A DNA stretch of 64,000 bases, from assembly GCA_900095095.1 (NCBI GenBank), contig FMBT01000370.1, positions 1 to 64,000 of the forward strand, given 5' to 3'. The position numbers and the translations under genes are program-made. The DNA comes from Fragilariopsis cylindrus CCMP1102 (taxonomy: Eukaryota; Bacillariophyta; Bacillariophyceae; Bacillariales; Bacillariaceae). The notes below the pieces were generated by a model, which was given only the letters and a program-made list of their open reading frames with translations, was not told where the DNA came from and ran no database searches. Positions 12,567 to 61,645 of the stretch are shown piece by piece (the first letter of the stretch is position 1; every line of letters begins with the position of its first letter).

Positions 12567-13173
12567 CTTTCAAAAAAATGAAATGGTATCAATAACAGTA
12601 TCCAGTTACATGTATAGGAATCGCAGAGCGCACACAGATGCTACTGCTCTAATTAATGTACTACCAGAGCTGCTAGTTTGTAATGATGAAGAGGAGAGGT
12701 ACGCTATGATGTTCGTTGTTAATAAAATTTAATATTTCACCTACTACAGTATTTGGAAAAGTTCTCATCGATGATCGATTTGGGGGAGTATCAATTTTAC
12801 ATGGGAAGAACAATCAATTACTTCACCCTTTATTGTAAAATGACCACAACAATCAATACGGGGGCCCTCCCCCAAATTCAAAATCAAAAAAGATCTTATC
12901 AATTATTATTATTGAGGTGATCGAGTGATTGATGATGATGGATGAGTGAAAATTATAATAAAAATAAGTAAAAAAAAGCTCCTGACTCTTGACACATACC
13001 TCTCATAACACCCACAATAAACACACCACTTACAGAAGACATAAGGCTTTTATTAGAAGTTGCCAGTGCAGTGCCGTCTGTCAGCTTTCTCAATTAACCG
13101 ATCACTCATTCTACATTACAAATTAATACTAAACAGCTGAAATGTACTGCGTCTCACCACTGAGAAGAGATAA
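12567..13173. other. divergent intergenic region
   Basis: About 600 bp separate the diverging PDZ-protein gene (minus) and the deformylase gene (plus). There are poly-A and poly-T tracts and no coding frame, so it presumably holds both promoters. Confidence 0.45.
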
Positions 13174-14304
13174 ATGAAGGACGACGTTCCCTTCACGGCG
13201 ACGATGATAACGATGAGAAGATTTCGTTCACGGATTGCTGTTGCTTTATTACGTCTTAATTCGATGGCAATATCGATGTCTGTTATAGTACTACTACTAC
13301 TATTGCAACAACAAATGATATGGTGCTATGGATTACTACAACCTACGATAACTACTACTACTAATACGAGACGAGAAATTTTTCGTTCATTACTCGGTAC
13401 TACAATTGGTGCTATCAGTACTACTGCGACCATTATAACACCGATATCATCATCATCTGCTGCAACAATGATACCTAACGATCATCCATACGTCTATTCG
13501 AACACATGGACTGGGACAAATTTGAAAATTCAATCTTTGAATGATGCTGTACAAAAAGTAACTACTTCAAATAGTAATTCTGATGATACAAATAATGCAT
13601 CATCGTATAATTACTGGACTATGGGAAAATGGCCAGATCAAATATTACGTCGTCCTGCAAATCCAGTTGATCCTAAGATGTGGTTATTAGGATCATCATC
13701 ATCAACCAACAACCAAGAACAACAACAACAACAACGATTAATACTACAGAAAGCGGCGACGATACTACGAAATACAGCTCGACGTGAAGGGGCAGTTGGT
13801 CTTGCTGCACAACAATGTGGTGTAGATGCAAAAATGGTTTATTTATCTTCATCATCAGGTACTACTGATACTGGTAATAATAACAACGAATTAGTATTTA
13901 TAAATCCTCGAATTGTTAATCGTAGTATAGAAACAAATATGAATGTATGGACGGAGGAATGTTTAGTTTTACCTCCTACCTTTCGAGCAACCGTTTTAAG
14001 AGATGATTGGATTGATATCGAATATGATTTCTCATATGAGTTTCGTCGATCATCATCAACAATAACGGGGGAAATGGTTGTGATACCAACACAAGGACGA
14101 GGAGGAACATCGTCGTCGTTAATGCCTATGAAACGACGTTTCTTTGGAGAACAAAGTCGTTGTCTTCAACATGAACTTGATCATGATCGTGGAATTTTAA
14201 TAACCGATCATGTTGGTCTAGAGGAACTGGAGAATGACGTGATGAGACAAATTGAGACCAACGGGCATACCCAACGGATGGAGCTGGCATATTCTAGAGA
14301 ATAA
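13174..14304 (+). CDS. peptide deformylase, probably plastid-targeted
   Basis: Peptide deformylase removes the formyl group from the starting methionine of organelle-made proteins, using a metal held by one cysteine and two histidines. All three motifs are visible: AVGLAAQQ at residues 207-214, EECLVLP at 261-267 (metal ligand Cys263) and QHELDHDRG at 332-340 (His333, His337, catalytic Glu334). Two motif positions differ from the textbook forms: the first motif has Ala for the leading Gly, and the second has EECL instead of EGCL. The first 55 residues hold basic residues and then a hydrophobic core (SVIVLLLLL), followed by a Thr/Ser-rich transit-like segment. That is the bipartite layout of diatom plastid proteins. 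Several in-frame ATGs (13174, 13204, 13213) could serve as start. Gln- and Ser-rich insertions enlarge the protein to 376 residues. The gene is intact and apparently intronless. Confidence 0.88.
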   Translation: MKDDVPFTATMITMRRFRSRIAVALLRLNSMAISMSVIVLLLLLQQQMIWCYGLLQPTITTTTNTRREIFRSLLGTTIGAISTTATIITPISSSSAATMIPNDHPYVYSNTWTGTNLKIQSLNDAVQKVTTSNSNSDDTNNASSYNYWTMGKWPDQILRRPANPVDPKMWLLGSSSSTNNQEQQQQQRLILQKAATILRNTARREGAVGLAAQQCGVDAKMVYLSSSSGTTDTGNNNNELVFINPRIVNRSIETNMNVWTEECLVLPPTFRATVLRDDWIDIEYDFSYEFRRSSSTITGEMVVIPTQGRGGTSSSLMPMKRRFFGEQSRCLQHELDHDRGILITDHVGLEELENDVMRQIETNGHTQRMELAYSRE

Positions 14305-14475
14305 AAATAAACAATAGTGTTAAAAATAATGCTAAAGCGTTAATTTGATAGGTGGATACTAAATTAGTTCAAGTAACTAAAAGATATCAAAATAAATAAG
14401 AGTTGTTTTTCTTTTCTGTTTCTATTCACAAACAATATCGGAATGAATGAATCCCCCTTTTCTTTTTCCGATGAA

Positions 14476-16944
14476 TTATACGATTGTTTTTGTTCCATCG
14501 GGGAACAAGATAATTTTTACACCATCAGCACAATGTCTTTCTACTTGTCCACTGGAGTATTCGTACAAGACACTGCCATCGTTTTGTGTTATCTGAAGTA
14601 CTTTCTCCTTGGAATGATAGTACGCCACTACACACGACGATGAAGGAGACGAACAAGTTACGTTCTTGGTTGCACCAAATCTTGTCTCTACATCCCCATT
14701 TCTAAAACGCGTTACTGTTGTACCGTCTGGATGAACTTCCTTAGAAGTTCCATTTCCGTAATCGATTAAGTGCCCACCACTCGGCGTCGTCCTTTTAGTA
14801 CGATGACTGGCATGAGATGAGATAGCAGAAGTTTCGGAGTGACTAGCATTGAGAGGTAATGCAATTCTATTGCTTTTGGGAGTCTTGTGTACAATGCTTT
14901 GTGTCTCGTCCTTATTGTATCTGCTGTTGCTGGCTTTATAATCCGATTGATTAGTAGGATCGGCATCTCTTTGACTCCTCAAGGTTGTACGCTTCACTAC
15001 TCCACCCTCCTTCACAATACACGCCAATTGTTCCTTCATGACGATCATCTGATTTGACAATTCTCGAATTTGTTCGTCCTGTTTCGTCATCAGCATATGA
15101 AGTTGATTTTCAGTTTCTGATCGTGATGAAATCTTATGGTTGATTTCGTGGCGCAAATCATTAATTGAAGCTTCGATAGCTTGATGATGCTGTTGTAAGA
15201 ATTCGGTTGAGACGGGACTATCGCCGGATACCGAAGCCGATTGTGATTCGGTACGAATTAATTGTCGTTGTTCTACCACCCATTGATTGACAGAGTCCTT
15301 TATGTCTTTGGCCCATTGTCGTGCCGATTCTCTTTCCTGACGGGCATCTTTCAAGGCATCAACAGCCGTTTGAAGAAGTTTCTTTGCACTTTCAGGACTG
15401 GTCAGCACTAGTTTGCTAGATTGTTCGTTTTGTTGTTGTTTTGGTATTGGAGTTTCAAGATTCGTACCTTGGATGTTATTATTATCGTTGTCGTTGTCGT
15501 TATCATTATCATTGCTGCCATAATCTCGACGACGAATAGGAAAAGGAGTTGCTTTTCGGTTAAGGTAGGTAGCATTAGTTGTAGAATCCATTTCCAATTC
15601 ACAATTATCATGGTCGCCACTTGTAGTAATCGGAGTCGTCATGGTCTTGTATTCGTTTTCTTCCACCACGGGAGTGCCAACTATGGAAACAGGAAGAAAG
15701 GAAATCGCTCTTCGAGCAGGAGTTGTTTGAAGCTGAATGGAAGACTCGCATTTGTTGTTTCCGATCCGGTCTTTTTCATTGTCTTCTGCTACTTTTTCGT
15801 CGATCCGGATACGACGATAATGAGGATAAGGTGTACCCTTTCTGATATCGAATTTTCTTACTTCGTCATCGTTAGTTGCTGAATTGTTTCCTTCTTTCGA
15901 CTTGGATGGCGTAGCATCCTTAGAGACAGTCTGAAAAGAGATTGTTTTGGCTCTATCAGGTGACGAAACAATTATACCGTTCTTTTGGAAGGTGGACAAG
16001 AGTCTAGGGGTTGATGATGATGATGATGATGTTGGTCCCATCATATCTTCTTGAACAATCTCATCATCCCCATCCTCGCTTTTGGACAAAGATAAAATTA
16101 AAGAAAGAGATTCGTCGTGGAAATACAACGAGGCTTCCCGACTGGGTGGACTCCCCGCAGGTTCATCTCGAGTAGGTGGACTTCCTGAAGGGTCTAAGAT
16201 TTTGGAGTATTGTTGTCCTGCCTGGAGCTGGAGCACATTTTGTGGTGTATTATTTTTCTTGTCTTTATTATCTTCCGCACCACTGAATCGATTCGTACGA
16301 TCTCGGAAGACATCATCTTTAGATTTGCGATTGCTGTAAATGTTAACACGCTCGTCATTACTACTAATGCTACCAAAATGATGTGTATCTGTAGTAGAAA
16401 AAAGTTGCTTGTTCGTGGACGGAGGAGTCGCCGTTGTTGTCGCCGCCATTTGCATGGTTCCTTCCGTCATCTTGTCAAATGCCAAACCGTCAATGTAACC
16501 AATCAATTCCTCTAGGTCGGTCTTCATAGCTTGTGTGACACTATCCGTGGGAGAAGGAGGGAGATGTTTATTGTCAGGACTACAATCACCGCCAGTATTC
16601 ATGTTGTTCGAAAATTCGTTCATCGTTGTGGGCATGTTATGACTACCCGAAGACGATACCATCGTAAGTATTTGTTTCGTCAACGATGGAGTGGATGGAG
16701 GAGGGGGTGGACGAGAACGAAGAGGACTCCTCTTATCTGTGTCATGAACGAACGAAGAAGTAGAAGTCGCCATCATGGAAACAATTACTGTTGAAATATC
16801 AGGAGGTAGGCAGCGCAAAATAGTTGATGTTGTCTGGTTGTTGTAGTAAGGTATATTTGCTTGTTTTCCCTGTTCTGTTGTTGTTGTTATTGCTGTTGTC
16901 ATTTTATGCGTTTTCGATAGCAGTTGCGTCGTGTTACAACGCAT
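14476..16944 (-). CDS. CPAP/SAS-4-like protein with C-terminal G-box (TCP10_C) domain
   Basis: The frame opens at a GTG, but the first ATG is at 16944 (MRCNTTQLLSKTHK), giving 822 residues. The first 530 residues are Ser/Thr/Asp-rich and probably disordered. Residues about 540-690 form a coiled coil (KKLLQTAVDALKDARQERES onward). The last 95 residues carry the repeated beta-hairpin words of the T-complex-protein-10 C-terminal domain, or G-box: NGTSKEVHPDGTTVTRFRNG, then NDGSVLYEYSSGQVERH, and FPDGTKTIV at the end. In animals this domain belongs to CPAP/SAS-4 (CENPJ), which binds STIL/Ana2 and builds centriolar microtubule walls. The identification rests on the G-box plus coiled coil; the tubulin-binding part of CPAP is not obvious. 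The gene is divergently transcribed from the ASPM homologue 207 bp away. It is uninterrupted, with no intron seen. Confidence 0.75.
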   Translation of the reverse strand: MRCNTTQLLSKTHKMTTAITTTTEQGKQANIPYYNNQTTSTILRCLPPDISTVIVSMMATSTSSFVHDTDKRSPLRSRPPPPPSTPSLTKQILTMVSSSGSHNMPTTMNEFSNNMNTGGDCSPDNKHLPPSPTDSVTQAMKTDLEELIGYIDGLAFDKMTEGTMQMAATTTATPPSTNKQLFSTTDTHHFGSISSNDERVNIYSNRKSKDDVFRDRTNRFSGAEDNKDKKNNTPQNVLQLQAGQQYSKILDPSGSPPTRDEPAGSPPSREASLYFHDESLSLILSLSKSEDGDDEIVQEDMMGPTSSSSSSTPRLLSTFQKNGIIVSSPDRAKTISFQTVSKDATPSKSKEGNNSATNDDEVRKFDIRKGTPYPHYRRIRIDEKVAEDNEKDRIGNNKCESSIQLQTTPARRAISFLPVSIVGTPVVEENEYKTMTTPITTSGDHDNCELEMDSTTNATYLNRKATPFPIRRRDYGSNDNDNDNDNDNNNIQGTNLETPIPKQQQNEQSSKLVLTSPESAKKLLQTAVDALKDARQERESARQWAKDIKDSVNQWVVEQRQLIRTESQSASVSGDSPVSTEFLQQHHQAIEASINDLRHEINHKISSRSETENQLHMLMTKQDEQIRELSNQMIVMKEQLACIVKEGGVVKRTTLRSQRDADPTNQSDYKASNSRYNKDETQSIVHKTPKSNRIALPLNASHSETSAISSHASHRTKRTTPSGGHLIDYGNGTSKEVHPDGTTVTRFRNGDVETRFGATKNVTCSSPSSSCVVAYYHSKEKVLQITQNDGSVLYEYSSGQVERHCADGVKIILFPDGTKTIV

Positions 16945-17151
16945 TCGCGCCACTTAAAATTTGAATTTTGGTCGCGCGCGCCCGTCAAACATGCTGAAAG
17001 AGGTCAACACAAAAACTCAAATTCAAAACGAGTAAGAAAGATGTGACACAAACAACAACAAACTGCCAACAAACGCAGCGCACAGAGTCGTATAGATTTT
17101 ATTCTTCCATCCTTCTGTCCATCATTCTTCTCTAACTGAGAACGGGAAAAG
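16945..17151. promoter_or_regulatory. shared 207-bp divergent promoter region (CPAP-like / ASPM)
   Basis: This spacer lies between the two start codons of a head-to-head pair and must contain both 5' leaders and promoters. It holds an unusually GC-rich core, GTCGCGCGCGCCCG at 16971-16984, inside AT-rich DNA. A TTTGAA word (16960-16965), the form of the animal cell-cycle CHR element, sits just beside it. Assigning a function to either motif is inference. Confidence 0.5.
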
Positions 17152-20100
17152 ATGCTGAAGATCCATCAAGACCATCGAGATGGAGGTGGAGTGGCCGCAA
17201 CTACCACATCTCGCAGCAAAGCTGTTTCCTTTGGTGTAGACGAAAAACAACCTACTCGACACAATGGTAGAAAAGCATTAACACCACTTCGAACAAGAAA
17301 TCGGAAACCGATCAATTCTCCGTATCCTAATGATAAAAAACACTCATCGACGCTGTTCAAATCACCATCATCAAAAACGACCACGACGAGTAATTCGTTT
17401 CGACAAGGTCTTAAAAAGGGATGTACGCCATCATCGACTAAAAGTAAGATACGAAATAATGATAGACGTGGTGAGGAGAACGAGACGATGACAGCTACTA
17501 CTACCATTACTATTAGTCAACCGTTACAAAATCGATCGCAGCAACAACAACAGACGAAGCAACTACCCAAAACACCCAATAGCGCTAGCGCTTTGAGACG
17601 AGTTCTTCGTGGTACTACGATTCAATCGGAAGAAATGCAGCAGCAGCGACAACAACAACAACAACATAATCGTCCTTCGGAAGAAATAGGGAAAAGTCGT
17701 ATGAATAAAATTGATCCGGTAGATAGTCAAAAACCAACTCTAGTCAATGCTAGTAGGTTGCGTTTATCTTCAGGGAACAACCAACAATCACTTCTTTCTC
17801 GATCGACAGTGACAGTATCAACCTCATCGTCACTTGTAGCGGAACGTTCACGACTAATTGGCAAAAGTGGAGTGGCTGCTACCGGAAGATCATCACTTAT
17901 GGGTTGCCTCGGTCCTCCTAAGCGGGTTGAACCAAAAACACCTAATTCCTTGTTACGGACCGAATTGGAAGACGAGGACGATGATTTTGATGAATCCTTG
18001 CTCATGTCTCCTCCTCCAGGGGCCTTATGGAATGCCTTGAATATTTCGAGTGGTGGTAGTGGTGGTGGTAAAAATCGACACAGCAGTAGTCCTATGGTTA
18101 CGACAGGTTTAATCATTGTATCGCCCCAAGCTGCAGAACAGATCCACACTTGGTCTTCTACCAAAAAGAAGTTATCATCGTCGCCTCTATCTTCACATAT
18201 CTCACCATCGTCCAGAGCAAATAATAGTACAAGTACAACGTCTCCAACGGTACCTAGGGCTCTAATGCAGACTCCACATGCCGCGGCAAAGATGATGATG
18301 ACAACTAATTCTCCTTCGAACAGTTCAAAAGTCAAACAAGCTCCTATCGTGGAAGAAGTCATTCACACAACAGAGGAGGGCTTATATTGTGCAATAGATG
18401 AACCTTCGAATGACAAAAAGTACACAAAAAATTGACCGTTTCTCCATCGTGTAAGACATCAAATGAGAATGCTGGTGTAGATGACGATACTTGTAAATCA
18501 GAACAGGTGGTTGAAAAGACAACTAAAGGCGGGATTGCGATGGATTTAACTGACCTATTCTCTCCTAAAAGCAATGATAACAAATCACAACAGCAAAATC
18601 AACCGGAGAAGAAAAAGATTTTTACGGAGAGTACACCCTTGTCGTCGTCGATACCCGCGGCATTGCTATCTAGATTGTCTACAAACAAGCAAAAATCTTC
18701 CTCACGGCAGACCCAAAAGAAAGACACCCGTATATTGCCGTCGATTCCAAAAGCGTCAGTAAAGTCGAGTAAGATTATTAAAGATAAGAAAATATCAACC
18801 CTAAACAAGACCAAGAGTTCGAATAAAATCTCGACCAAACCTAGCAGAAAGAACAAGGCAACGGAGATGGTGAAACCATGGAAGACCTCAGTTTCCAAAT
18901 CTTCCAGGATAAATGAATACGGAGCGTCGAAGAATCTTGTAAAGCAATCGTCTATCGAAGAGAAATTAATAGTAACAGATGTAAAACGAGGCAAAATGTT
19001 CACCGAAAGTACATCTGACGAGAAAGAGCTCTCAAAGTTAGAAGATACGATTACTTGTGAACGACAATCGGAGGCGAGTCATCGAGGAGGCTTCGCGTTT
19101 AATGTTGGCTTTAATGATACAGCAGAAAAATCCATGACGCCACTACCATCGTCAAGGAATAAAACTATATTGGCAACGAATCCATCGAAAACAACTACGA
19201 TCACCAAAGATTCCAATCGAAATGACGTCTGGGCTGAGAGGCAATGCGAATCCTTTGTTGGATGGCTAAATTATACGTTCAACCCAGAGGAAATGGATAT
19301 CATTAACGAGGGTAGTGATGTTGCGGGTCTACGGGCACTTTTGATTCATCGTCGCCTTGCTGCTAGTCGAGCAAAGGCTTTTGATTTGTTTCGAGACGAC
19401 TCCATGCACCAGATTCGAACCATAATTGTGAAAGAAATTGCACGTGGAAAGCTTTCCATTCGTTCCGATCGTGATGTGACCGCAGACATTCAGCTTAGAA
19501 AGAAATTGGTGTCTCTCCTTCTTTCGTATACAACCCCTTGGCTTCGAATGGGATTAGAAGTTATGTTTGGGGAATGTATTGAGCCAGTGCCTATCTCACA
19601 AAAAAGTCCTAAGGTACGTACTTTTCCCTCTTCTTTTTGTATATCCACCAAGCTGAGCATGTGTAGAATTCTCGAATGCTCTCTTACCCGCTTATTTTCT
19701 AATCTTATTTGAAATAACCAAAATTCGTGGAATAGACATATTTGGGCCGAATGAAGCTTTCTCTGGAGATTTTTATGAAAAAGTGTTTCCTATCTGATGA
19801 ATTCACATTAGAAAAGTTTACGAAAGGTCGCTGTAATGTTCCGTCAGGTAAATTTGAAACGCGATATAAAGCACAAATGAGAAATCTAGTGTTATCAAGA
19901 ATCATGACTTTGGTATTCTTTCTAGATCGAGCGAAGACGGCAAACGTGTTAGACAAAATACCAAGATTATTCACCGTATCGTCTGAAGTGAAATCATCAC
20001 GTGATGTTCTCGTCACCATTTGCAGAGAATGCTTGTCTTCGGAGGGAGACGTTGTCAAACATCTTTCTCGAATCGGCCTTAAAATATCTTACGTTCAGGA

Positions 20101-23100
20101 CCCAGTCGACGAAGTTAGCTTCAAAGTCAGTAATTTGGCTACTGATCTACGCGATGGAGTCCTCCTGACAAGACTTGCTGAACTTATTACGGGTACATCG
20201 TTCAAAACGCTTATGGCGTCGCTCCGCCTTCCAGTTGTGTCAAGATTGCAAAAGAAATTCAATGTAAATCTAGCACTTTCTAAGATCAAGGATTCTGGAA
20301 TAACCATAGCAGCAGGGATCAACGCCCATCATATAATGGATGGTCACAGAGAGAAGGTTCTGGTTCTGATGTGGTGTATTATTGCACATTGTTGTATGGA
20401 AAAACTGATACAGGGTAACCAAGTCGAGGATGAAATCCAAAATGTCGTCCGATCATCACAAGCTAGAAAGAAAATTGAAGGTATATCCTGTACGGAACTC
20501 AAGCATGCATCAGTTCAACACAAATGTATCGTCGCTAAAGATTCCTCTCCAGAAAAAATCCTGAAAGATCTTTTGCTTCGCTGGAGTCAGGCTGTTTGCT
20601 CATCATTCGGTCTGGCAATCAGTGACTTGAGCGACTCTTTTGCGAATGGCAGGGCACTATGCTTATTGATACACTACTACCATCCTTCGTTAATTCGTGT
20701 CGATGACATCTTACCTACGTCTCTTGAATCGGACTCTTCTCACGGCGACCTGAATCTAAACGAAGACGAATTTTCAGAAAACGAACGAGCTAATTGGAAG
20801 AAAGCTTCCAAATCAATGCAAGAGCTTGGAGGAATTCCTGATATGATCCCTATATGTGATTCGAGAAACCCTCCGGACGAAAAATCGATGCTCCTGTGTC
20901 TATCTTATTTATGTTCTCGTTTGATGGAGTCTAGTCGAGAAATTTTTGCAACTATATTGATTCAGGCGTGCTATCGCAAGTATCGTAGCAAGATTTTAAT
21001 GGAAAAGAAAAATGCTGCTGCTGCATTCATTTTCCGTACATGGGCTCTGAACAAAGATAATTACTTCCGAAAACAAAAGCAACGATATACGGTTGCTGTT
21101 GCTACGTTAGAAGATTTTATTCTTTCCCATAAATATGCTCTGAAGCAAATGAAGAGAACAAGGTTAAAGAAGGAACTCATGATGCATTCAGCAATCAATA
21201 TTCAGAGGATGTTTCGAGGAAAACTTGGTCGGGATCGGTATTCTAAAACGTTTGAACTAGAGAATGCCGTCATTCTTATTCAGAGCATCTTCAGGCAGCA
21301 ACTAGCAATGCGATCGTTGAATAGTAAAATTGCATCAGAAAACGCAGCCATCACTGTACAATGTGCCTTTCGTCGTTATGTCGCACAGGAAGTGTTCCTT
21401 GACTACCGGTTTTACATTATTCAGTTGCAACGTACTTTAAGGGGATATTTAGTACGAAAGGAAATGAAGGGAAGGGAATATGCAGCTAGTTTGATCCAAC
21501 AAGCATGGTGGTCTTATGTACTACATACTGAAACTGAATTGGCAGCAACATGCTTGCAAAAGACCTGGCGAGGTACTCTAGGGAGACGTAAATACATTGA
21601 ATGTTCCAACCGTCGTAATGCGGCATGTTCTATCCAAAAAATATGGAGAGGATACTACCAATCTTTGATGTATTTCATCGCTGTGGAATCATCGATTGTG
21701 TTACAGAAGATGACGCGAGGTTTTCTAGCAAGAAAAGTCAATTCAATACGTATATACCGCCAATCCGCGACCTCAATCCAAAAAGTATGGAGAGGATTTT
21801 CAGTTCAAGTTCAGTATCAGGTTGATCTCCTAGATATATGTGCGGTACAGAGCTTGGCACGGAGATATCTTGCACGAAGGGTTTATTCAAAGAGGGTATT
21901 TGCTCTCTCAGTTCTACAGTGTGCATACCGCTGTTCTCTAGCACGACGCAAAGTGACATTCAAAATTGAAGCTATAATTGAAGAGACACACTATAGACTT
22001 TTGACATCATCAGCTACAAAGATTCAGTCAGCTTATCGCGTAAAGAAACTTCGATCTATGTTTGTACGATCGAAAAATGCTGTGGTGGATATACAGAAAT
22101 ATTGGAGAGGATATAAAAGCCGTCGAACCCTTAAAACTCAATCATTTGCAGCAACTATGATACAGTCCATCTGGCGACAATATTGGGTATATAGCGACTA
22201 CAAAATGTTTATAAAAGAAAAAGAAGCGGCAGTTCTAATCCAAGCCTATGCTCGTCGAATGGTTACCAGGCAGATGATAGATGTCCAAAGTTTTTCAGCA
22301 CGCATGATTCAGCGTCAATGGCATCGGCATTCGTTGTTTACATTAGAGACGTACCACGTCACGATGATTCAAGCAGTTCTGCGTTCTTATTTGGCTAGAA
22401 CGCATTTTCTTAAGCTGAAGAAATCAGCAATTGTCGTGCAGAAAATAGCAAGAGTCCATCATGCAAGAAAGGTGTTTGCGCTTGAACAGAATACGCGGCA
22501 ATGCGAAGATGCTGCTATTTCTATACAGAGAATTTGGAGAGGATTTTCAGACCAAGTTCAGTTTCAAATGGATATTTTTGATATTGTCTGTATTCAAAGT
22601 GTTTCCCGGAAATTTCTTGCTTCGAGAGCTTATCAGAGAACTATCACATCTGTATCTACCATACAACGTGCATCAAGATGCGCTGCTGCAAGGCGCGAAA
22701 GATCATTGAGAAAGCTTGTTCTGGATACTATAGTTACGAATTCGGTCATCACGATTCAGACAATGTTCCGATCACATACGATGAGATCCAAATTTTCGAC
22801 CATGAAAGATGCTTCAGTGGTTATTCAGAGGTGTTGGCAAGGACATGCTACTCGCAAATGCCTCGGCAAAATGCGACGATGTGCAACTTCTATCCAAAGC
22901 AGCTGGCGTATGTATCAACTCCGTTCCAGTTATCTGTCGCTTTTAGAATCTGCTACAAAGATCCAGTCTTCCTGTCGTTTGTATTCCACAAGATCAAGAT
23001 ATTTGGCACTAAAAGATGCAGTAATCGTCATCCAACGTCGTAGGAGAGGATTTGCTGTAAGAGATAGTTTGACCAAACAATCTCGTGCCGCTACCATGAT

Positions 23101-24370
23101 CCAAGGGAATTGGCGACGAACTATCGCTCAAAACAATTACCTTCTGGACTTACTAGAAATGAGATCTGCGACAATAGTACAAGCCTCTTTCAGAATGTAT
23201 ATGTGTCGTATGGATTATATGGTGATCAAGTTCGCAGCCCAAACTATTCAAAAATATACAAGAGGTCTTCTTTCAAGGGTAGATCTTGCGGTCAAGCACT
23301 TTGCGGCTTCGGAGATTCAGCGAATTTGGCGTGGTTACTGTACCTACTCTTTTAAAATAATACGCCGTTCTACAATTAAAGTCCAGTCTGTAATAAGAAT
23401 GGTTTCTGCGAAGAAAAAGGTTGATGAATTGAAGATTCTATACTGGGCAGAGAAGTGTTACAGAAATAGAAATGCTGTTATTATTCAAACTTCGTACAGA
23501 AAATACGTACAACGAAGAAGAAGGAACACGGCCGCTACAGCGATTCAGAGAACGTTTCGGTTTTATTCACAATTAAAACGGATTCAAAGAGCTTCTCGCG
23601 GTATTATTGCACTGCAATCGTTGTTCAGAGCAACTCGAATTCGCAACAAACGAAGTAGAAAAGTTGCACAACTCGCACGCCGCATTCAAGAGGAAACCCA
23701 ACGAGCAGTACAAAATCCAACTATGCAGCTAGGATGGAGGACATCTCGAGCTTTAGAAATCTTACAGACCAGCCAAAGTCTTACAAAAATTATGGATGCT
23801 GTGAAAGAGTTAGAGGCTTCTACTCGTCTATCAGTTGTTTGCTGTCAGGTATTTACTTCCGTAAATGCGTCAGATATTTTACTTCATCTCATTCAAAGTT
23901 GCAATAGAAGTGTCCCACATATGGAACTTAAGGAGCATATCTTGCTCACACTGGAAAATGTTGCACAGTATCCATCGCTGGTTGGCTCTTTTGCGCATTA
24001 CAAATATGCGGGGGTATTCTTAGATAACATCCAAGTATTCAGAGACAAGGAAGGTATTTTTTGCCTTGCCGTGCTGTTGTTGGATCGCATCGCAAAGGCT
24101 AATCAGACTGACGTACATCAGTTCTGTGCTAAGTACGAGAACCTCAAACGGCTTAAAGAGGTAGTACGGGTGGTTGGTAATACAAGATCACGTTCTAGGA
24201 ATGAGACCGAGAAATCAAAAAGACTTCGAAAGTATGGTTTAGCAAAGCGAAACGACTACAATAGAGAAAAATCGACGAGGATCCTTAAAGTTATGATATC
24301 TAACTTCTCGAAGATCGAAATTCCTCGTCCTTCCACACCAAAATGCGTCAAACAGTTCACCTTCGATTAA
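17152..24370 (+). CDS. ASPM: ASPM / abnormal spindle homologue
   Basis: ASPM binds calmodulin through IQ motifs and focuses microtubule minus ends at spindle poles. Exon 1 is 17152-19613 and exon 2 is 19736-24370, with a 122-nt intron (GTACGT donor, TAG acceptor). Exon 1 contains one frame break at about 18427-18432, an A6 run before TTGACC; restoring one base gives 2,365 residues. Residues 1-690 are Ser/Thr/Lys-rich. An ASPM-specific region starts near 692 (WAERQCESFVGWLNYTF). Two calponin-homology domains follow, near 943-1040 (DLRDGVLLTRLAELITG) and 1099-1220 (FANGRALCLLIHYYHP). Then come about 35 IQ or IQ-like units (such as SIQKIWRGYY and TIQKYTRGLLSRV) to about residue 2135, and an armadillo-like C-terminus (LSVVCCQVFTSVNASDILLH). 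Domain order and length match ASPM closely. It is divergent from the CPAP-like gene. Confidence 0.93.
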
Positions 24371-24535
24371 TTTTCAACTTCTGTTAAAATAAGATATTAT
24401 CAAAGTAACAGAATAAATTTAATTCAATTCTTAGAAATTTCTATCGTATATAGGATTTTTTCTTGCGGCTCGTTATCACACGGTTGTTTCTCTTGAAAAG
24501 AGGTCTTGACTTTAAAGAAGATTACATAGTCAAAA

Positions 24536-27500
24536 TCATTCCTCGTAGTCTTCTTCTTCGTCGTCATCATCATCATCTCCTTCATGTTCTTCTAAATCAA
24601 GGAGTTCCAGTGATGCTATATTACCTTCGTTCATATCAGTCACAACTCCACCGACTCCCCGTTGTGGGAGCAACAATTCGCATAACTCAGTGGAAGAATT
24701 TTCTGAAACAATTCGATCTATGAAAAGAGCAGTTAGTTATTAATGATTTTTTTTTAAGGAGTGAGTGAGTGAGACACGACAGAAACCATAGATTATTAAC
24801 TTTTAATAACAATTTGCAAGAAGCTTAACTTACTGTGAGCAACGAGAACTTCCTCCTCGTCATAATCCCTTGCTAACGAAATCGGCAAGATATTTCGACA
24901 ACAGGTACTATCGACCTGTGAAGCATTCAGTAACATAGAATCAAAAGGAACAGCTTGCCATAGGAGTGAATCGTAAACAGTAGTCCACAGCTCTGTTACG
25001 GAGGACGACGATGAATTCCGGTAGATAAATCCAATCTTTTGTTTCCCTTCCATCCCACTTCCACTATCCATTCCAGATGAGAGGGAACTCTTCCCATCAT
25101 CTCCGTAAAAGCCTATCTGAAGAACGCGTCCTTCAACCGGCAATATCAGCTTTGCGGTCAAATAATATGGGATATCGTCCCTATCGATGTCTTCATCTTC
25201 GATGTCATTGTCATCGGGATCTTTTTGCGTCCAACCGAGTGGGAGGCAAAATATTTGTATAATATTTTGTGACGCTTGGGCAATTAAAAACCACTGACGA
25301 CAGTTCTCCAAACCAGATTCAGGAGAAAGATTGGCATAACGGTTACTTTTGTAGGAAATTTTTGGTAGAAAGTGTGTCATTTCTTCTCCCTCCTCCTTGT
25401 CGTCGTCCCAGAAGACACTGCACGATGCTGAGTCACGACCAATACGACTATGGGTGGCAATTATGCATTTCTCAATGCTCGACGACGTACGAGGCAAAAA
25501 AATGTCTGAAGAGATTGAAGGAGATGTAAGAAAAGATTAGATAGGGTTTAAAAACTAGCTGCTTCGAAGTAGTTACTGGTGCAAAATTATGCAAAACTTT
25601 ACCTTTCGAGCAAATCTGGTTCGGCACATTCGATAATGGGTTAGAAAATAAAGATTTAGTAGCGGCAAATGCTTGCTGAACTGACGGACAAACACTGGGG
25701 ATCGGATACAAGATACCTCTCACTGAAGACGGACTTTGCGGACGGGTAGATGATGGTATTTCGGTGGCCTCTGTGAGCATTTCCTGGGGTATTTTGAGAT
25801 TTTCATTTTAAATATGCATAATAGAGAGAAAGAATAGCTCATTTTAGTAAATCAACTAGCAGCAACAACAGCAACAATTCTCTGGATAACCAATCATTCG
25901 TTGGAATTCTGATACCCAGTGTAAAAGAATGGTAAACTTACTGTCACTGTGAGATTCAAAAGAGTCTCTGATAAGCCAGTTTGGGTTTTTTGGTCTTTTC
26001 CCATTGTCGATGACGATAACAAAGAATCTTTCTGGCTTTTGTTAAGGACAGTTACAAGTCGCTCTAGGATGGCTTGTGACACTCGCCGTTTCTTAGCGTT
26101 TTCCCGTTGGACCGAATTTGGAGCAGTACCCCTTGCCTTGACCTGAGACCCAGCATGTCTCAACCAGCCGCAAAAGTCTCTCACCAACATCCGACCTGAC
26201 ACAATAGATGTAATCACATTTTCTGTACTTATCCACATTTGTTGACTTGCTTCAATCAATTCCTGAACCAATTGACTCTTGCTGCTTATGGTTTCCTCGC
26301 CCCCAACAGTATCTGCGTCGTCGTCGTAAGTTGTATCGAAAAATTGTACAAGGCCCCCCAATTCTTGAATCTGCCACCCCAACGCCTGCGTCGGTCGTAA
26401 TAAACAACCGATGGCTGTCGATTCAACGTTACCCATCGAAGCCAACAGAGATCGTTCCATTCGTTGCAGAAGTTGATCGTTCATTTGCACCCCAGTAAAG
26501 AATTGATCCATAGCGTTAGCAATGGACGACGAATGAGTTACGTGTCCCATCATAATGTATTCCTTCATGACAGTCGATAGTGTCGTCATGGTGATTGAAG
26601 TATTCCCCGTGACTTCATTATTCACATTTTCGTCGACTTCCACACCGTAATTACGTAGTAGGTTGGTCAAGGTAACAACTTTTGATCTAGTGGTTTTAGA
26701 CTAGTCTGCCAGCTGCCTGCTACAATTGATACTGATCGTTTGATCATCTGGAGATGCGCGGTTATAGACGTGTGGAGAGCAGCAATTTGTTGAAGAGCGT
26801 ATCGATCTCGTTTCAAAAAGGGTGTGTGATATAATGTCAAAGAATTGTTGGTAGAAAGTTCTGTGGTCGATGAGGCAGCGTCGTTGGCAATTGGAGTCGC
26901 AGTGAGCCAATATGCCTTATAAAGTGAAGAAGTAAGAGAGAGATTTAATAATTTTGTTGTGAGCGAAAAAGTTTTGTAATTTCACGGGAGAGGGAAACGA
27001 AACATGTTGTGTACGTACCAAGTCGTTACTTGCGACCACCAAAGGCGACTTCATCGAACTCGCCGACGAGGTGGTATTAACGAAACCGTTATTACATTTC
27101 GGCAAAGTCAAAAGCGGATATCTACCGTGTAGATAAAGTCGATGTTCCATATCGTTCGTAGAGACACAAAGAACGCTTAATGGCGTTCGACATTCAGGCA
27201 ATGATCCACGCGATGACACCGACGATTCAGCATCAACTGACATACCCATTGATCCTCCTCCACCTTCCATTCCATCGTTGCAGTAATATGCACTGGGGGG
27301 CAAAAACTTAGTAGATTGATCGATGTAATGGGATTGATATCTAAAAATGGAATCAGTTGAGATGGACCATGCAACGTATGATGAACATTAAATAAAATGA
27401 AAACATATAACAATAAAAATCTACAGCATGCTGTAACATAAAGCTCACCTCCACGAAATTTCACGTTCTTCTTCCTCCATCGAAGGGGCAGCGGCGGTGG

Positions 27501-58750: not shown

Positions 58751-61645
58751 TTAGATAGAGTTGGTTTCCAATAAATGTAGTAAGATGAGATGCATACCTG
58801 CTCGCCGTTGGACCATAGATGATTCCATGATGACATTGGCAGGACTTGGTGAGCAACATGTACAACAAATACGGGCGACTTTAGCTGCCGTTAATCCATT
58901 ACTTTCCTTGTAGAGTAAAACTTCTCGGAAAAAGGACATGATATATACCAATACATTATAATGTACGGGAGATAAAACTTCCAGGAACTTTCGGGACATT
59001 GACTGGATGTTTTCTGAATTGATTTCGACTATTGGGAACAAATTGGACGGTATTACCGGAGTGGATAGTGACCTTAAGAACTTTGTAAAACATTCAACAT
59101 ACGAATGAGCAGAGGAAGGTGAAGTAAACGGAGAGCCGGTGTCAAGTGCTTCACGGATCTGTGAAACTTCGACAGGATTTCCAGGAGCCGAGAAAAGTTC
59201 GTGATTTTGCAATCCTTTTTCGTATATAGCATCAACGATTCGCCACAATTCTTTGGGTATACAAAGTGCATTACTGGGACTGATTTCAGATTCATTTGGA
59301 AAATGCACAGCACGTTCGATGGCGTCGAGTGGGATTGTGCGGATTGGATCTTTATATAGGACCAACTCATCGAGGCTCATTCCGAAGCATGATCTAGCAT
59401 ATGTTCCCTTGACAGTGATGTAATAGTCTCGTCCGTTTTCTAATCTAAGAATAAGAATGTCGTCCACAACTTCTCGTCCTCCATTCAAAAGTTGAGCAGT
59501 TTTATTATCAATTGTTACTGTCACGTTGATGATAGCGGCCGCTTCACCTGGAATCAACATCCCGTATGTAGGTGTTACGGTCATCCAAGATTTACACAAG
59601 TAATTCTCATCGAGTTTGGGAACAAATCGGAATTGGGCGCAAACATTTCCTGTGTTTGTGACCTGAATGGGTAAAGTAACGGATTGATCATACCGAACGG
59701 GACCGAAGTCTAACTCGACCGTATCTAATCCAACCATTGGAAGAGATTGATTCTCAAATCGATCCAGTAAACTTAACAGTTCCTTGTAGATTGCCTCGCG
59801 TCGTTCCAAGATAACATCCTTGACGGTGACGCGCATGGTTGAGTAGACAGGTTTATGATCAGAACAATTCGGCGTCTCACTTCGATTGTAGGTAAGTTGT
59901 TGGACGTGTTGGGGGTCACTTTGTGCCATCCATAAAATTCGATCGCACCATGCTGGAGCACGCAACTTCTTTTCAGGACGTTGTTCGTAAATGTCAGTTC
60001 CCGGTTGATACTTGTAGGTGGGAACGAATTTAAAGCACCCTCCTCGAAACCCTGGAAGGACGTCCCTCTCGCCGTTCTATATTTAGTTGATCAAGGGGCC
60101 GTAATGGATCTAATCGATTTGACACTGCTAGTTCTAGTACCTTTTCGGTTGGCATGCTTTCGTCAATACGATAATTCAAATCTCCCAACCAAAAGATAAC
60201 ATCATGATCAGCGATGCTTACACTGGCACTACCGAGCGCCCATTGACTCATCGATCCGTTGCGAATGGTTTCCCTGACGATGTCCTCTCCAATTTCAAAG
60301 GAGGTCTTTTGGTAGACGTTAAGATAATCGGCGTTCCGTCCAGCGATATTTTCTCGATGGGCTGCCAAGTGACAGCAAACGAAGCAGATAGTTGAATCGT
60401 AAAATTGTAATCTGACGCTGACCCCACCCTTGTTACCCATCATCCCCATAACACCTACCCCGACCGAATCACTAGCGACGGCCTTGCATCGTTGACGATG
60501 TTGGACCTTAACGAATAAACAAACGAGTAATCCGACTAAACTACGTTGCATAACAAGTGCGTATTGCGGTTCTTGTGGTTGACCTTGTTGATTATGGGAC
60601 GGATTTAAGGTTTGTAATAGTTGATCTGACCAATACTGAGTTCGTTGTTCTGTCTTATTACCAACAGCAACATTCACAGCATTCAAATCTACGATTTCTT
60701 GAAACCCAACTGCAACGATGTCCGGTTGGAGGTTATGTCGATGCCAATCACCGCAAATCCATTCATGTAACGATTCTTCTTTGCCCTTAGCATTAACGTT
60801 CCATGTACCGACAAAAATTGAGGACTATAATAATTTGCATAGCATTAAGTTTGTTGTTAGATTTGTGATAGGGTATAGTAAAAATGGATAATTCCGTTGT
60901 AAGAAGATTTCAAAGTAGGGCAAATCGAATATTGTGGGATGAACGAAAAAATGACGACGAACGAGATTGATTCGATTCGATTCGATTCGATTCAAATCGT
61001 ATCCTATTCTATTTAATATGAATTTTTCAGATCTTATTATGATATGATTTGAATTAAATCAAATGGAAAATATATGGTTTCACTACTTCTACTTACCTGT
61101 TTATATTCGGTAAATTCTCGTACCCGTTCTCGGACCTGTTTGTATACCCAAGCATCACGAATCTTTGCCATCGCCTCACGATTTCGGATACGACCATCTT
61201 CAGTTTCTTCATCAGCCGTACGAGTAACTAACACCTTATTGGTAGCCTCATCTCTTCGTCTAATATTATTATTATTATTATTCGGTGGCACCACTGCTGC
61301 CATCATTCCTCCCGATGACGGAGGTGGTGTTATCGTGGGAGTACCAGGCATTGGTGAACGGTTGGCTGGTGGTATTGGTTGCTGCTGCTGCTGCTGCTGT
61401 TGAGGAGGAGGAGGAGCCATTGTACCATGAGGAGTCGATTGTTGCTGCTGTGCTGGAAATCGTTGTTGTTGTTGCTGCTGTTGCTGCTGCTGAAGCTGCC
61501 ATTGTTGTGCGGATCGTTGTTGCTGTAGGTGAGGATTAATATGCTGTTGCGGTGGCTGCTGCTGCTGCTGCTGCTGTTGCGGTTGTTGTTGAGAGGGCGA
61601 AACTGCCCAATCGGGAACTCCACCGGTATTAGGATTATTTGACAT
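58751..61645 (-). CDS. OCRL/INPP5B-type inositol polyphosphate 5-phosphatase with ASH and RhoGAP-like domains
   Basis: Exon 1 is 61645-61097 and exon 2 is 60824-58751, with a 272-nt GT-AG intron; the joint reads ...EFTEYKQ/SSIFVGTWNVNAKGK. The enzyme removes the 5-phosphate of phosphoinositides such as PI(4,5)P2. Catalytic motifs appear in order: FVGTWNVN, PDIVAVGFQEIVDLN, GNKGGVSVRL, HDVIFWLGDLNYRI, then PTYKYQPGT, APAWCDRILW and NCSDHKPV. A beta-sandwich ASH segment and a C-terminal RhoGAP-like helical domain follow (LSRSLSTPVIPSNLF-type text and LTAAKVARICCTC), as in human OCRL and INPP5B. The N-terminus is Gln/Pro-rich. Two one-base breaks flank the FQGFEEG motif, at about 60055-60062 and 60026-60034. 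Restoring both gives 874 residues. Confidence 0.88.

Follow-up and report, generated by a model that had tools for sequence, protein, structure and literature searches.

ASPM-like and CPAP/SAS-4-like genes lie head to head across a 207-bp spacer in a diatom genome

The window analysed here comprises 64,000 nucleotides from Fragilariopsis cylindrus CCMP1102 (positions 1 to 64,000 of contig FMBT01000370.1, GenBank assembly GCA_900095095.1) and forms the start of one contig, C221, in a 67.9-Mb assembly of 818 contigs. It includes two genes that are transcribed away from one another, namely a CPAP/SAS-4-like gene on the minus strand (14476..16944) that encodes a protein of 822 aa, and an ASPM-like gene on the plus strand (17152-24370). 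A preliminary description of this DNA had placed the two start codons 207 bp apart, and this was confirmed, as the minus-strand open reading frame (ORF) extends to 16944 and the first ATG of the plus-strand gene is at 17152. The gap is 249 bp if the CPAP-like gene starts at an alternative codon, Met15 at 16902. The gene families, their order and their spacing are shown by the sequence.

The preliminary description had also assigned the minus-strand protein to the TCP10_C family, and a profile search bore this out, with the C-terminus matching Pfam Tcp10_C at 45.9 bits (E 4.3e-12), above the curated cut-off of 36. The G-box is encoded by 14482..14805 (minus strand, aa 714-821), as located by the Pfam match, PDB matches and the mapping of contact residues. 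When the protein was compared to PDB sequences using phmmer (E up to 1), seven matches were found, and the five best were all CPAP or Sas-4: zebrafish CPAP (4bxp, 1.1e-11), the related 4ld1 (1.3e-11), a mutant form (4bxq, 1e-10), the Ana2-SAS-4 entry 4by2 (3.7e-4) and fly Sas-4 (4mpz, 6.4e-4). The remaining two (E 0.24 and 0.56) are unrelated, leaving CPAP/Sas-4 alone below 0.1. In the phmmer alignment with zebrafish CPAP, 35 of the 90 aligned residues are identical. Five of the eight STIL-contact residues that the text of Cottee et al. 2013 (PMC3776556) lists for the CPAP G-box are kept (F978, Y994, T1005, Q1019 and E1021, zebrafish numbering) and three are changed (F1015 to Y, Y996 to H and H1003 to Q). 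One of the kept residues, E802 in the diatom protein, corresponds to zebrafish E1021 and human E1235, and the latter is mutated in some MCPH patients (MCPH6 microcephaly; PMC3776556). The predicted coiled coil was also recovered, in a region (14983..15171, minus strand, about aa 592-654) where the heptad pattern scores above all 200 shuffles. It lies upstream of the G-box, an arrangement shared with CPAP. In a six-frame search of the assembly, Tcp10_C was found at a single place, as one stretch of 32.4 bits. The low-complexity part of the protein contains two similar motifs, KGTPYPHYRR (aa 369-378) and KATPFPIRRR (aa 464-473), which are possibly copies of a repeated short binding motif.

The ASPM-like gene is made up of several ORFs with two reading-frame junctions. 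Its first coding part (17152..18419, plus strand, as are all that follow) is of low complexity. A second part (18572..19613) is separated by a 122-nt GT..AG intron (19614..19735) from the last part (19736..24370), which encodes the CH domains, the IQ array and the C-terminal end. Between the first and second parts lies a frame-change zone (18420..18571), where the shift can be mended either by removing a candidate 152-nt GT..AG intron or by a one-base slip in a run of A. The G+C content of this 152-nt zone (0.395) is higher than in the 122-nt intron (0.361) but lower than in the coding stretches on either side (0.437 and 0.407), and hence composition cannot choose between an intron and a slip.

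Pfam searches of the ASPM-like protein identified CH (63.2 bits, two stretches), CAMSAP_CH (31.1 bits) and IQ (215.1 bits, 18 stretches). The first CH domain (20117..20401) matches alpha-actinin and related CH domains and the second (20561..20920) is the best Pfam CH stretch; we take QDPVDEVSFKVSNLATDLRDGV to resemble the CH domains of ASPM. The IQ array follows at 20957..23644. Though a long IQ array is clearly present, the figure of about 35 motifs given previously was reached by a loose pattern alone, with doubtful and overlapping matches included, whereas a stricter pattern found 20, and 300 shuffles yielded 0.66 on average and never more than 4. Judged from the sequence, two CH domains followed by an IQ array is the ASPM layout, and that part of the earlier claim stands. 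The ARM-like end that was part of the same claim was not confirmed, as no C-terminal ARM/HEAT-like repeats matched Pfam above the cut-off in this protein. The PDB matches listed include no solved ASPM chain, so the name ASPM rests on architecture. The CH region was found at one place in the 67.9-Mb assembly. An IQ family search of the genome returned nothing, and is uninformative because the window itself holds IQ motifs.

Bidirectional promoter pairs consist of head-to-head genes whose starts are less than 1 kb apart and, at 207 bp, the ASPM-like and CPAP-like genes fit this spacing. The spacer (16945..17151), a candidate shared promoter, was found once in the genome. Spacing was compared in a sample of 261 kb made up of the window and 20 stretches around kinesin genes, which included 106 ORFs and 85 neighbour pairs, 21 of them divergent. 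The 207-bp gap was the shortest of these 21, with 430 bp for the next and a median of 1168 bp, as measured with a crude ORF caller that dropped the IQ-rich ORF 19751-24370 and that ignores introns, so that a short 5' exon makes the other divergent gaps look longer than they are. If 30-100 spindle-pole genes are assumed among 15,000-27,000, then 0.008-0.16 head-to-head pairs would be expected among them, for a pair that was picked post hoc. A search of titles and abstracts, in which little subscription literature was covered, returned no report of ASPM and CPAP/SAS-4 genes paired head to head.

Within and at the edge of the spacer we found two features of possible regulatory interest. An E2F-like octamer, ATTCGCGC (16943..16950, plus strand; 0.054 expected per 221 bp), sought after the fact, overlaps the upstream ATG of the minus-strand gene, and a GC-rich imperfect palindrome (16970..16983) includes an inverted repeat surrounding a GCGCGCG run. 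Six motif patterns were counted upstream of 19 kinesin genes and in 54 other upstream regions. The GCGCGCG run was absent from all 73 (0/54 and 0/19), while WTTSSCSS was found in 6/54 other and 3/19 kinesin regions, CGCGC in 9/54 and 1/19, TTTGAATTT in 2/54 and 0/19, AACGG in 10/54 and 4/19, and WTTSSCGS, the E2F-like octamer, in 3/54 and 1/19. None of the six was clearly enriched at the 19 kinesin upstream regions, and as signs of shared mitotic control the motifs are suggestive at most. The papers listed on diatom promoters and on E2F in diatoms (PMC4392632 among them) gave nothing on an ASPM/CPAP pair.

The explanation we favour, to which we give a probability of about 0.5, is that these are genuine diatom homologues of ASPM and CPAP/SAS-4 which share a promoter and are expressed, and act, together at mitosis. 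As the two genes are transcribed head to head out of one short intergenic region, a single open-chromatin promoter is probably common to both and drives both. Such a promoter would lead to joint expression around mitosis, and the two products would most likely cooperate at the microtubule centre of a cell that is presumed to be without centrioles. There, the CH domains of the ASPM-like protein would bind microtubule minus ends and draw them to a focus while its IQ array carries calmodulin, and the CPAP-like protein would be a scaffold, its G-box binding a proline-rich partner and its coiled coil self-associating. We infer a role for both diatom products at the spindle poles and the microtubule centre. 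In a review of the animal proteins (PMC10047693), the CH domains of Asp/ASPM are described as binding and bundling microtubules and the IQ motifs as binding calmodulin. ASPM and WDR62 are also reported there to interact with CEP63 and with CENPJ/CPAP/Sas-4, which makes the diatom pairing functionally sensible. Co-regulation of the two genes is plausible, on the evidence of one genome.

Several observations weigh against this explanation, and some of them would suit its main rival, in which the names are right but the two genes are chance neighbours in a compact genome, each with its own core promoter and with no co-regulation. We consider this a serious possibility, if somewhat short of even. 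The evidence comes from one genome alone, and divergent pairs make up about a quarter of the neighbouring ORF pairs (21/85). The other neighbours that could be named using Pfam (peptide deformylase, PDZ and FMO) are unrelated, and the spacer motifs are not common to kinesin upstream regions, with the E2F-like octamer present at one of the 19 and GCGCGCG at none. An accidental arrangement accounts less well for a gap that is the shortest of the 21 divergent gaps, or for the small number of spindle-pole pairs expected head to head, and 207 bp would probably leave scant room for two independent promoters.

The remaining points against the favoured explanation concern the proteins. No ASH domain was found by Pfam in the two N-terminal coding parts of the ASPM-like gene, where the frame-change zone was partly covered and a 5' exon is possibly missing. 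The five of eight STIL contacts kept are not significantly above the domain background (hypergeometric P 0.15), and a PRxxPxP motif of the STIL type is in neither the CPAP-like nor the ASPM-like protein. The N-terminal tubulin-binding region of CPAP is PN2-3. The first 641 aa of the diatom protein retrieved no tubulin-binding CPAP chain from PDB at E up to 10 but two unrelated matches, in a search that could miss a short motif. The unmatched tubulin-binding region and STIL contacts kept no better than background, together with a G-box match that is shorter than the solved domain, raise the question of whether the minus-strand protein is instead a lineage-specific G-box scaffold whose beta-sheet domain serves another partner, not a working SAS-4 and unrelated to spindle poles. 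The failure to find SAS-6_N, for which there was no match and no candidate in the assembly, points the same way but weakly, since 14 control genomes gave none either. We regard a lineage-specific scaffold as improbable, as the G-box is the sole one located in the genome, all PDB matches below 0.1 are to CPAP/Sas-4, the coiled coil and G-box are in the CPAP order, and the equivalent of E1235 is kept.

The content of the genome bears on the nature of the host and on its flagella. The assembly includes 27 Silic_transp matches, as expected of a diatom, and 33 kinesin matches, so eukaryotic families are detectable in it. A search with PF03028 found one dynein heavy chain (L028, C554:3651-3980), which PDB scores identify as cytoplasmic dynein 1 (3e-127, whereas axonemal chains reach about 1e-56 at best). 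An interim conclusion that there was no dynein, drawn from negative searches with DHC_N2, AAA_6 and a P-loop pattern, was dropped accordingly, and two further weak PF03028 matches were rejected because, on reading, they look like midasin. No axonemal dynein heavy chain was found in the assembly using DHC_N2, AAA_6 and PF03028. The C554 match is 3.6 kb from the contig start, too near to accommodate the N-terminal part of the heavy chain, which was found nowhere else. Hence, the assembly lacks some sequence or this part escaped the search, and every absence reported here, that of SAS-6 and of axonemal dyneins included, is weakened. As the sole dynein heavy chain found is cytoplasmic, flagella are probably absent. 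According to a paper on Parmales (PMC10328945), centric diatoms retain a detectable part of the IFT-B genes, but these are lost in pennate diatoms, in which flagella have never been observed. In Wickstead and Gull (PMC2239267), the centric Thalassiosira has DYNC1H1 and outer-arm dyneins, and Phaeodactylum is among the species with a dynein heavy chain. The dynein results and these published data together make it likely that the host is pennate and flagellum-less. Some kinesin matches with identical scores are on separate contigs (e.g. C410/C651, C508/C577 and C29/C608), which suggests that the haplotypes were left unmerged in part. The ASPM/CPAP pair was located only once.

Elsewhere in the window, the peptide deformylase gene (13174-14304, plus strand) is tail to tail with the CPAP-like gene, their ends being 171 bp apart. 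An ORF at 58751-59929 (minus strand) encodes a RhoGAP domain as well as an OCRL-like ASH domain (131.7 bits) and, thus, represents the C-terminal portion of a 5-phosphatase of the OCRL type. No Rfam match was found within 13000-26000. The ASPM CH region had no relative in IMG/VR or GTDB and the G-box query had one match in each, but both were rejected after reading the ORFs in which they lie. The ORF that holds the IMG/VR match (L031) is phage baseplate-spike-like and includes the sequence GTSKEVHPDGT, and the GTDB match (L032) is in a bacterial UvrD/RecB-like helicase ORF. The phage ORF (L031:4315-5451) includes GTSKEVHPDGTEV, which is nearly letter for letter a G-box repeat of the window protein; the two are probably independent beta-hairpin repeats.

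Little is known of what makes up the microtubule centre of diatoms, and the pair described here provides two named candidates. In a 2023 survey of its components (PMC10454807), GCPs, Aurora A and centrins were identified, and neither CPAP, SAS nor ASPM came up when the main text was searched for these terms. CPAP is a core centriole-assembly factor, here in a seemingly flagellum-less genome, and the pair makes it possible to test whether CPAP has a job in the absence of centrioles and whether the connection with ASPM predates animals. A bolder proposal, that diatoms lacking flagella and centrioles keep SAS-4/CPAP and ASPM as two co-regulated genes, a module for building an acentriolar spindle pole, appears doubtful to us at present. 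If true, the G-box would have a conserved role apart from centriole assembly, and the animal ASPM-CPAP partnership would be ancient.

In its head-to-head order, short spacer and functionally related products, the pair resembles divergent gene pairs on bidirectional promoters. Like vertebrate CPAP/CENPJ and Drosophila DSas-4, the minus-strand protein ends in a G-box that has the glutamate contacting STIL (human E1235) and that follows a coiled coil. It differs from them in that about 105 residues are matched where the solved domain is longer (chain of 192 aa), in that it matches no tubulin-binding chain, and in that its host is probably without flagella. The plus-strand protein differs from ASPM and Drosophila Asp in that an ASH domain and an ARM/HEAT end at the Pfam level were not detected, but like them it carries a long IQ array after two CH domains, and one copy was found. 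With about 20-35 IQ motifs, it compares to 24 in the fly protein and 81 in the human one, the numbers given in the review cited above (PMC10047693).

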